A program made the translations under genes and the position numbers. Positions 15,949 to 50,183 of a stretch of DNA of 64,000 bases are shown piece after piece (the first letter of the stretch is position 1; each line of letters starts with the position of its first letter). The notes under the pieces were generated by a model that made no database searches, was not told the DNA's origin, and was given only the letters and a program-made list of their open reading frames with translations. The stretch spans positions 62,001 to 126,000 of the forward strand of contig NZ_CP021106.3 in assembly GCF_000355765.4 (NCBI RefSeq). Direction: 5' to 3'. This DNA comes from Nitrosospira lacus (GTDB taxonomy: Bacteria > Pseudomonadota > Gammaproteobacteria > Burkholderiales > Nitrosomonadaceae).

Positions 15949-16434
15949 TCAGCTTTGCTTCTTTGAAATTTCCATCATGTTCCATTTGGGACCCGAATAT
16001 TCAAAAGTAACCGGCTCGAGCGGCGTCCGCTCGCACCCATCACGCATCAACGCGGCCGTTTCTCCCAAGGCTATTTCCTGCAGGCGGCAGCGCATATTCA
16101 ATACGCCATCGCTGGACTCGAAGACGCCGCAGGTACGCGAGGTCTCACCATCCGCCCGATAGCCTTCGGATGCTGCGTGAGACCCCACATCGTTCATGAT
16201 TGCCACGGGCAAATGGGGATAGCGCCGCCGGGCTTCCCGAATCCATCGCAACAGACTTGCCTGTTGAGCGCAATCGTATACGTTGCCGTCAACAAGAACC
16301 ATGTCGTAATCTTCCAGGTCTGGCTCAGGAAAGCTTTCCAGCGATTTTCGTTCCAGCCTGTGCTTTGATTTCTCAAGCAGCAGTTGCAGGATTCGACGCG
16401 CATCCTGTTTTTCTCCAACCAGAAGAATATTCAT
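15949..16434 (-). CDS. Degenerate response-regulator receiver-like protein coupled to luxI
   Basis: 161 aa. The first 75 residues follow a CheY-like pattern: strand 1 MNILLVGEKQDAR, helix, then YDMVLVDGNVYD where the Asp in VLVDGN would match the phospho-acceptor. The acidic pair after strand 1 is replaced by Gly-Glu, and the conserved Lys loop is not visible (FESSDG is found instead), so normal phosphotransfer is doubtful. The C-terminal 60 residues match nothing I know. Its ATG overlaps the luxI stop by 4 bp (ATGA), with AAGGAAGG inside the luxI tail as ribosome site, so it is translated together with the AHL synthase. A role in tuning quorum sensing is an inference from context only. Confidence 0.65.
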   Translation of the reverse strand: MNILLVGEKQDARRILQLLLEKSKHRLERKSLESFPEPDLEDYDMVLVDGNVYDCAQQASLLRWIREARRRYPHLPVAIMNDVGSHAASEGYRADGETSRTCGVFESSDGVLNMRCRLQEIALGETAALMRDGCERTPLEPVTFEYSGPKWNMMEISKKQS

Positions 16435-17045
16435 GCGGCCTTCCTTTGCGCATCCTCGGGAAGCGTACCGAACAGGGCAAACTCCGTCATGGCGTCGATC
16501 TCGATGTAGCAGGCTACGGTTAAAACCCGTCCAATCTTGATAGGTGCTCCCAGTCTGGAAACGTTGACACCAAGTTTGCGTATCAGCCTCTCCACGGCAA
16601 CGGTAGTTACGGTCACGTAGCGCTTTATTCCGTTGTTTTGCGCAAAAAGAAACAAGGTTCGCATCATTTGGATGGGAATATCGCTAAACCCGAATCCCGC
16701 ACTTTCATACTTGGGAACCGCCACGGCAAACCGGCTCAATTCCCACACATCGGTTTGCCGGGGTGCCGGCTGCCCATGCAATAGCTGTGGAAACGTATCC
16801 TTCAGCATGTTGGGACCGGTAGTGGGAAGCAGCCGCCAACAGCCCAGTATCTCATCCTCATCGCCTTTTGCCAGGACATATACCGGATTTGCATGATCGA
16901 ACTCATCATGCTCCATTCCATTATCGTTGGTTACCTCCCACCCCAGCCGATCATGAAAAACTTCGTGTCTCAGTCGATACATTCCAATCACCGCCCGTTG
17001 ATCCAGTGAAGCATTTCCGTGCTGCGCAAGCATGATCTGTCCCAT
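16431..17045 (-). CDS. luxI: LuxI-family N-acyl-homoserine-lactone synthase
   Basis: 204 aa. The LuxI catalytic residues are visible with a shift of one from LuxI numbering: R26, F30, W36, D47, D50, R71, F85, E102 and R105 (in WELSRF). A Thr-rich strand at 145-148 lies where 3-oxo-selective synthases carry Thr. The enzyme makes AHL from SAM and acyl-ACP; the homologue described in Nitrosospira multiformis (nmuI) is reported to make long-chain AHLs, from memory. No luxR is adjacent; the only one in the window is at 49449. Two lux-box-like dyads lie 65-130 bp upstream, which suggests autoinduction. Coupled to the downstream receiver-like gene. Confidence 0.95.
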   Translation of the reverse strand: MGQIMLAQHGNASLDQRAVIGMYRLRHEVFHDRLGWEVTNDNGMEHDEFDHANPVYVLAKGDEDEILGCWRLLPTTGPNMLKDTFPQLLHGQPAPRQTDVWELSRFAVAVPKYESAGFGFSDIPIQMMRTLFLFAQNNGIKRYVTVTTVAVERLIRKLGVNVSRLGAPIKIGRVLTVACYIEIDAMTEFALFGTLPEDAQRKAA

Positions 17046-17107
17046 TTCTGGCCCCGTCCTGGTTGTTAATGACGGTGCTATGAAACAACGGAATGGAGGC
17101 TTCCGAT

Positions 17108-17127
17108 AGCTGTAGAATCTTACAGGA
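17108..17127 (-). promoter_or_regulatory. lux-box-like operator 1 for luxI
   Basis: AGCTGTAGAATCTTACAGGA contains the dyad CTGTA-N6-TACAG, i.e. CTG-N10-CAG, the LuxR/LasR box rule. By eye 16 of 20 positions agree with the Vibrio fischeri lux box. It ends 63 bp upstream of the luxI ATG; a weak -10 candidate (TTCATA, minus strand) lies at 17079-17084, placing the box near -40. Confidence 0.75.
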
Positions 17128-17158
17128 AAAAATGCCAGATACTCGCTGTAACCGTTAT

Positions 17159-17174
17159 CTGTAGCGGATTACAG
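17159..17174 (-). promoter_or_regulatory. lux-box-like operator 2 upstream of luxI
   Basis: CTGTAGCGGATTACAG is a second CTGTA-N6-TACAG dyad, again obeying CTG-N10-CAG, centred 49 bp upstream of the first. It could be a second LuxR site for luxI or an operator for an unseen divergent transcript. Confidence 0.65.
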
Positions 17175-17640
17175 GCCTCCGCACCGGATCAATTTGAACC
17201 GGATTTTTGGTGATATTTCCGGGAAATAATAGGTTCGAACAGGGGTAACGTTCAGTTCTTTTTGTACTTTTTTCTTCGACACAGGTAAGGCGCATAAACC
17301 GTAGGACGCTATAAGCAAAGCACATTATGCCGAATGTCTGGATAACCATTCTTCTCAACCATTCGGCGAAAAGTCGAATATGGCCACTCACTTACCCGCC
17401 TCACTAAACCGCGCTTGAAGTCTCACCGCCTCGCGAAGCAATTCTATATAGACGTTACCCTGCCGTCGCGGCAGGGTAACGTCGAATAAATATATACCAT
17501 ATGAATAATAAATTTCATTTGGCATTATGGGTTTCAGATATTACGCCTTACGTCTTGGATAAGTCGTTTGCAGGCGCGGAACCCCGGCCATGCGGCGGCA
17601 TGACCGCGACTATGGCCGACTTCTGGCGAAGATGATTCCG
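17175..17640. other. Intergenic region between the luxI promoter and the siderophore receptor 3' end
   Basis: 466 bp without a credible gene. It holds the 17-bp motif at 17230-17246 and a perfect 33-bp hairpin at 17451-17483. The only longish frame (minus strand, 17155-17391) would overlap lux box 2 and has no recognisable protein character. Confidence 0.5.
17451..17483. repeat. Perfect 15-bp-stem palindrome
   Basis: GACGTTACCCTGCCG and its exact complement flank a 3-nt loop (TCG). It lies 158 bp past the stop of the TonB receptor gene. No T-run follows on either strand, so it is not a textbook intrinsic terminator; it could be a transcript-stabilising stem or a protein-binding dyad. Confidence 0.7.
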
Positions 17641-49448: not shown

Positions 49449-50183
49449 ATGACTGATTTAAGCCTGTTCGAATCGTTGCTAAATTGCAACACAGTGGAGG
49501 AATTGCATACCAATACGACGGCCATCATCGGCCAGATGGGTTTTGAGCATTTTCTTTACGGCGTGCAAGTGAATACTTCGCTTACCCGTCCTTATCGATT
49601 TATCCTCAGTTGTTATCCGGAAGCATGGCGCAAGCATTATGATGAAGAGGGTTATGCCGGTATCGATCCTACCGTGGCACATTGCGCCAGAACCACCATT
49701 CCCATTATCTGGAAAAACGAGGTTTTCAAGGGACGCAAGGAAGCCCGGGTAAGGAGCGAAGCAAAGGATTCCGGCCTGGTGAGCGGCGCCAGTTTCTCAG
49801 TACACGGCGGACGCGGGGAAGCCGCAATGCTGAGTCTTGCCACCTCACGGGAATCCCGCGAAGCACAGGATGACATTTTGGCGACGATGGGCCGTGCTCA
49901 ACTGTTAACCTGTTATCTGCATGAGGCGGTGCAGCGTATCGTGCTTAGCCAAGGTCCCCTGCCCCTGAAGCAAATCAGCCTGACAGAGCGGGAAAGGGAA
50001 TGTTTATTATGGGCGGCGGAAGGTAAAACGGGCTGGGAGATCGCCAACATCGTCAGTATTTCGGAGCGAACGGTGACTTTTCATCTCCAGAACGCAGCGC
50101 AGAAAATGGGGGTGGTCAACCGTCAGCAGGCAATCTCCCGCGCCCTCTCCATGGGGCTTATCGCGCCCTGCACTATTACGTGA
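49449..50183 (+). CDS. luxR: LuxR-family AHL-responsive transcription regulator
   Basis: 244 aa. The autoinducer domain retains W60, Y64, D73, P74 and W88 in the PEAWRKHYDEEGYAGIDP...IIW segment, and a Gly at about 121, i.e. the residues that line the AHL pocket in TraR/LuxR. The GerE/LuxR helix-turn-helix is LTERERECLLWAAEGKT...ISERTVTFHL. It is therefore a full AHL receptor rather than a solo lacking ligand residues. SD AAGGAAGAAG before ATG. luxI lies about 32 kb away; pairing of the two is likely because no other candidate is in the window, but not proven. Confidence 0.93.
   Translation: MTDLSLFESLLNCNTVEELHTNTTAIIGQMGFEHFLYGVQVNTSLTRPYRFILSCYPEAWRKHYDEEGYAGIDPTVAHCARTTIPIIWKNEVFKGRKEARVRSEAKDSGLVSGASFSVHGGRGEAAMLSLATSRESREAQDDILATMGRAQLLTCYLHEAVQRIVLSQGPLPLKQISLTERERECLLWAAEGKTGWEIANIVSISERTVTFHLQNAAQKMGVVNRQQAISRALSMGLIAPCTIT

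Follow-up and report, generated by a model that had tools for sequence, protein, structure and literature searches.

A conserved, probable lux-box promoter module at luxI and a predicted direct quorum-sensing regulon in Nitrosospira

We analysed a 64,000-nucleotide stretch of the Nitrosospira lacus genome (the window), in which two dyads precede the acyl-homoserine-lactone (AHL) synthase gene luxI, and find it likely that AHL-loaded LuxR, encoded at 49449, binds the proximal dyad and activates luxI together with a regulon that shares the same promoter module, the distal dyad being incidental. We infer from sequence that LuxR is the binding protein, that AHL is needed, that the effect is activation and where transcription starts. 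A lux box in front of luxI is ordinary; the useful result would be the prediction, for an ammonia oxidizer, of a regulon under direct quorum-sensing control. In the proposed mechanism, LuxR with AHL would bind the proximal dyad and touch the RNA polymerase of a promoter whose -35 is weak and whose -10 sits at a fixed distance of 24 bases past the dyad, thereby switching on luxI and the coupled downstream ORF in positive autoregulation. Some dozen further transcription units of the host genome are preceded by the same module, which recurs across the genus, and because of this recurrence one LuxR would directly control sensory, c-di-GMP, exopolysaccharide/exosortase and surface genes as its regulon. 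Throughout, g1 denotes the genus Nitrosospira, including strains named Nitrosovibrio, and g2, g3 and g4 denote other genera of the family. The features of the window are as follows.

15949–16434, minus strand: 161-aa ORF, 4-base overlap with the luxI stop, kept in g1 and g4
16431–17045, minus strand: luxI, acyl-homoserine-lactone synthase, 204 aa (PF00765 Autoind_synth, E 1.1e-37)
17080–17085, minus strand: TTTCAT, -10-like hexamer, 24 bases past the proximal dyad (TNTVAT there in 10/15 exact dyads)
17104–17109, minus strand: CTATCG flank, immediately after the proximal dyad, approximately at a weak -35 position (CTA at 13/15 exact dyads)
17110–17125, minus strand: proximal box, CTGTAAGATTCTACAG on the luxI strand, 65–80 bases 5' of the luxI ATG
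17146–17174, minus strand: candidate longer inverted repeat CTGTAATC-N13-GGTTACAG, overlapped by the distal dyad
17159–17174, minus strand: distal dyad, exact CTGTA-N6-TACAG, 114–129 bases 5' of the luxI ATG
49449–50183, plus strand: luxR, presumed regulator, with autoinducer-binding domain and GerE helix–turn–helix (HTH)

A sequence-only reading had placed two CTGTA-N6-TACAG dyads 49 bp apart, 65–130 bp before the luxI start, and the measurements agree: both dyads are exact, CTGTAGAATCTTACAG at 17110–17125 and CTGTAGCGGATTACAG at 17159–17174, with a start-to-start distance of 49 bp and with 65–80 and 114–129 bases, respectively, between them and the ATG. Its figure of 16/20 positions shared between the first dyad and the classic lux box holds on the plus strand and becomes 15/20 on the luxI strand; the distal box, set against the same sequence, reaches 13/20 and 12/20. 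With up to one mismatch allowed, the window contains three such dyads against a shuffled mean of 0.61, and 3 of 100 shuffles reach three. The 161-aa ORF downstream is probably in one operon with luxI; its first half looks receiver-domain-like by eye, it has no match in Pfam or NCBIfam, and its structure model is of low confidence (mean pLDDT 53.7). Between the TonB-receptor gene and luxI, a hairpin made out by eye at window positions 17451–17483 (GACGTTACCCTGCCG-TCG-CGGCAGGGTAACGTC) is perhaps a terminator.

Alignment of the luxI upstream region in close relatives, named beforehand as the check that could refute a lux box here, found the proximal box kept. Upstream regions were taken from 26 of the 27 luxI loci of the family (22 from g1 and 4 from g4), and the box was present in 26/26, as CTGTAAGATTYTACAG in the 22 g1 regions and CTGTAAGATTTGACAG in the 4 from g4. 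The 27th locus, in genome G019 (L082), was examined separately and carries CTGTAAGATCCTACAG with a CTATTC flank and GTCTCAT approximately 350 bases before the luxI ATG, which brings the box to 23/23 g1 genomes and 4 of g4. This locus looks as if an extra stretch had been inserted between the luxI promoter module and the ATG. The sequence CTGTAANATNTTACAG occurs in 23/23 g1 genomes and 0/102 other genomes of the family. Over the 22 g1 rows (the four g4 rows and G019 left out), mean column identity was 0.974 in the proximal box and 0.955 in the -10-like hexamer, 0.811 from that hexamer to the ATG, 0.697 between the dyads and 0.602 upstream of the distal dyad. Among named genomes, CTG-N10-CAG stands at -75 to -83 in 31/31 luxI relatives, only 10 of which are new because 21 are g1 or g4 loci that coincide with the family set; the new loci are eight Candidatus Nitrotoga records, five of them with CTGTC in place of CTGTA in the box, and two other betaproteobacterial records. 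The window LuxI and the LuxI of Nitrosospira sp. NpAV share 94% identity. An imperfect CTG-N10-CAG palindrome upstream of luxI is the form of a lux box at a luxI promoter, and the proximal dyad, judged by these sequence comparisons, very probably serves luxI as its lux box and predicts luxI autoinduction. In the draft genome G015 (L103, L251), luxI is split across two frames, by a frameshift or an assembly error.

The proximal dyad is followed by CTATYC and then, 24 bases on, by the -10-like hexamer, an arrangement that resembles LuxR-activated promoters, and the same arrangement recurs elsewhere in the host genome. Among its 15 distinct exact CTGTA-N6-TACAG sites, 13 have CTA on one side and 10 have TNTVAT at an offset of exactly 24; no other offset between 10 and 44 has it more than twice. 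LuxR-activated promoters are recognized by a dyad centre near -42 to -45 and a fixed spacing to the -10; the offset of 24 in 10/15 dyads provides the latter, and the dyad centre would fall at about -44.5 if the offset-24 hexamer is the -10. An activator of the LuxR type that contacts RNA polymerase, as in Vibrio fischeri, would require a fixed dyad-to-hexamer spacing such as the one found here. Two exact dyads have neither the CTA flank nor the offset-24 hexamer: the distal box and the L021 site, which shows TATCC at the flank and, as a one-base deletion would leave it, TCTTAT at offset 23. In relatives, with one pattern-only locus from each (n = 22), the CTA flank was found in 17/22 and the offset-24 hexamer in 14/22, or in 16/21 and 13/21 once a single luxI promoter is removed. 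Across 53 sites in relatives, 39 carry the hexamer at offset 24, a count biased by the fact that these sites were picked by the profile R1. For the dyads as sigma-54 enhancer sites, which would have a TGGCAC-N5-TTGC promoter downstream, the best match per site to that pattern covered 8–11 of 12 specified positions, scattered and at no constant spacing, in a comparison made without a shuffle control.

R1 was built from 14 promoters of the host genome, namely 13 of the 15 exact sites and L023, a one-mismatch site that was kept in the training set because its flanks fitted. Left out were L021, the distal box and eight other one-mismatch sites (L024–L030 and a second site in L014), and the host genome has further one-mismatch sites beyond those used or weighed for R1. 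Scoring took at most 150 candidates per genome, and the family survey at most 41 under stricter filters. We give no site number per genome because R1 counts include second-strand matches of one palindrome, and the 14 strong matches in the host genome are not independent evidence because they are the training set. Among the matches listed for 125 family genomes, R1 found all 27 genomes with a strong luxI match and 1 of the 98 others. At E up to 0.01, the matches listed covered 23/23 g1 genomes and 4/4 g4 genomes with luxI and luxR, and 0/5 g4 genomes without luxI (three of them 51–80% complete), 0/8 in g2 and 1/85 in g3 (E 0.004). The co-occurrence in g4 is partly built in, because any genome that has luxI brings the luxI site with it; one g4 site other than luxI was examined (in G121). 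Overall, the co-occurrence of the module with luxI and luxR follows phylogeny. Ten genomes with Nitrotoga and related loci each have an R1 match at luxI, by coordinates, and one of them has a second, indicating that the module is tied to luxI. It seems to be mainly in g1 that targets other than luxI were gained or remained recognizable to R1.

Predicted targets were sampled in 9 of the 23 g1 genomes and at one g4 site, giving 67 genes for 68 sites; the target was the longest ORF starting within 900 bases of the site, not always the first, and genes were clustered by BLAST, with families named in the host genome and G121 and assigned by similarity elsewhere. Within the nine g1 genomes, the families shared after the sites are a PAS histidine kinase (9/9), an exosortase-system acyltransferase, TIGR03694 (8/9), a CheR protein (7/9; the host genome has a CheW gene ahead of CheR) and a kinase-receiver-Hpt protein, a tyrosinase and a TPR protein (6/9 each). 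Other targets in the host genome are a FadL-like porin, a KaiC unit with a GGDEF/EAL protein, another GGDEF/EAL protein, a second kinase-receiver-Hpt protein (at the L021 site), a LamG protein, a glycosyltransferase, a polysaccharide lyase with a weak PEP-CTERM match and a gene with a weak ATP-grasp match. In g4, G121 has one further site, before an exosortase-system acyltransferase. Going by gene names, these families suggest control of biofilm and surface functions. As a separate observation, TIGR03694, the family of a core predicted target at L013:901–1695, also weakly matches LuxI. The L013 acyltransferase would thus be related to the signal synthase and have the same type of promoter.

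The presumed regulator gene was expected to lie far from luxI, and it does, at 49449, approximately 32 kb away. This distance is no objection to autoinduction because a separation of 28–42 kb is a trait of the genus: by coordinates, 20 of the 22 g1 genomes with a LuxR match have luxR and luxI at that distance on a single contig, and the other two have them on different contigs. Outside g1, a LuxR-like ORF stands directly upstream of luxI in 13/14 loci. The genome encodes an AHL receptor with autoinducer-binding and GerE domains, and the window LuxR is its only Autoind_bind match; LasR is the best match among solved structures, and a comparison of 13 proteins, the window LuxR among them, shows good conservation of the HTH region, which is kept among relatives with similar boxes. 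Candidatus Nitrotoga loci (L238–L241, L243, L244, L246 and L252) have LuxI in all cases, 69–76% identical to the window LuxI, and a LuxR was seen in 7/8, with approximately 63–66% identity to the window LuxR in the four Nitrotoga loci compared. Autoregulation of luxR by the module was considered and set aside, as no module lies near luxR within the window.

The same data bear on whether some other activator binds the module, luxI being just one of its targets. We regard this as unlikely, since the genus, g4, Nitrotoga and the two other betaproteobacterial records have luxI as their common target, since all ten Nitrotoga and related genomes have the luxI site and one of them a second, and since LuxR neighbours luxI in those 13/14 loci outside the genus, even though the broad target set would fit another activator and the confounding of co-occurrence by phylogeny leaves room for one. 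Genome G013, which has luxI and sites but no LuxR match, also fits another activator; it is 93% complete in 260 contigs, and the missing LuxR is perhaps a gap in this draft.

With LuxR as the preferred regulator, the question for the distal dyad is whether it too is a lux box, and here the relatives speak differently. Its exact form is found in 1 of the 22 aligned g1 upstream regions, the window's own, and a search of both strands found neither a CTA flank nor an offset-24 hexamer. The distal dyad thus fails the conservation check in close relatives that the proximal box passes, and we set it aside as a second lux box on conservation and on the missing flanks. Autoinduction from two lux boxes, as the sequence-only reading had it, is supported for the proximal box, through its conservation, its promoter spacing and the adjacency of luxR in relatives, and is not supported for the distal one. 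That both dyads are nevertheless functional LuxR sites, the distal one serving as a second operator or as the site of an upstream transcript, strikes us as quite unlikely: chance alone would seldom place an exact dyad 49 bp from the first, the distal block is somewhat conserved (mean column identity 0.79 in the 22 g1 rows versus 0.602 upstream) and CTG-N10-CAG is kept there in 5/22 aligned regions, but the distal dyad departs from the centre consensus and CTG-N10-CAG recurs at its position in only 2 of the 31 named luxI loci, a set that does not include the window's genome. Read as a dyad, its cells are paired in 63% of cases versus 22–33% when slid, a value matched by 40/500 shuffles; for the longer inverted repeat that it overlaps, pairing is 76% versus 21–46% when slid (19/500 shuffles as high). 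For this longer repeat, the number of cells changed on both sides was reached by 57/500 shuffles and the covariation score by 31/500, and pairs changed on both sides are not in excess (479/500 shuffles reach their count), so that a longer inverted repeat over the distal dyad is weakly supported. The distal dyad is probably not a functional lux box; we read it as incidental, or as a degenerate remnant, and it may be the site of another regulator.

The CTGT-N8-ACAG shape of the dyads is also that of the E. coli-type LexA consensus, and one TPR unit (L020) has a methylpurine-DNA glycosylase gene behind it, but LexA (SOS) boxes are highly improbable here: the sole match to the LexA model falls below the cut-off (74.8 versus 110.95 bits) and adjoins an ImuA gene (L032), this 3.5-kb LexA-like locus contains one GAACGATTGTTC and no CTGT-N8-ACAG, no classic SOS gene is present among the first target genes classified, and a fixed spacing to the -10 is unexpected for a repressor such as LexA.

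The proposed action of LuxR at the proximal dyad has a well-known counterpart in V. fischeri, in which LuxR acts on a CTG-N10-CAG lux box upstream of luxI in positive autoregulation. The Nitrosospira arrangement is like that system in having CTG-N10-CAG upstream of luxI at a similar distance to the -10 and in the positive autoregulation that we propose, and unlike it in that 4–5 of 20 box positions differ, luxR lies 32 kb away and a genome-wide set of similar promoters is present. Gao 2014 and Mellbye 2017 reportedly dealt with the AHL synthase of Nitrosospira multiformis, the same gene as the window luxI in the same genus. Nitrospira belongs to a different phylum from Nitrosospira; its NspR1/NspI system likewise has a lux box upstream of the synthase gene. 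According to PMC8553950, that box lies 81 bp upstream of nspI, differs in sequence (ACCTGGCGGTTCCGCCAGGT) and was tested by reporter and EMSA, few NspR1 targets were confirmed, and NspR1 bound only together with RNA polymerase. For Acinetobacter, PMC8088503 and PMC6523755 give a predicted box, CTGTAAATTCTTACAG, upstream of abaI, which shares 12/16 letters with the proximal box of the window, a resemblance that favours LuxR as the regulator; the AbaR/AbaI system differs by a third gene, abaM, between abaR and abaI. PMC6050957 reports Candidatus Nitrotoga fabula proteins 56% and 46% identical to AnoI and AnoR. The AHLs of N. multiformis are tabulated in a review (PMC9095614), whose table has nothing beyond the synthase discovery under N. 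multiformis and enters ‘Unknown’ under N. briensis. Among the titles and abstract openings searched, no Nitrosospira quorum-sensing regulon was found.

The module would provide a compact, conserved list of candidate direct quorum-sensing targets in ammonia-oxidizing bacteria. The likeness to Nitrotoga is a reason to consider signal sharing between two guilds of nitrifiers, which is conceivable because the Nitrotoga LuxI and LuxR are closely related to those of the window and the luxI promoter is nearly the same. We offer as a tentative possibility that Nitrosospira expanded an autoinduction promoter once confined to luxI into direct control of at least a dozen units, tying quorum sensing to exosortase/PEP-CTERM exopolysaccharide, c-di-GMP and chemosensory signalling, and that ammonia and nitrite oxidizers could hear each other.
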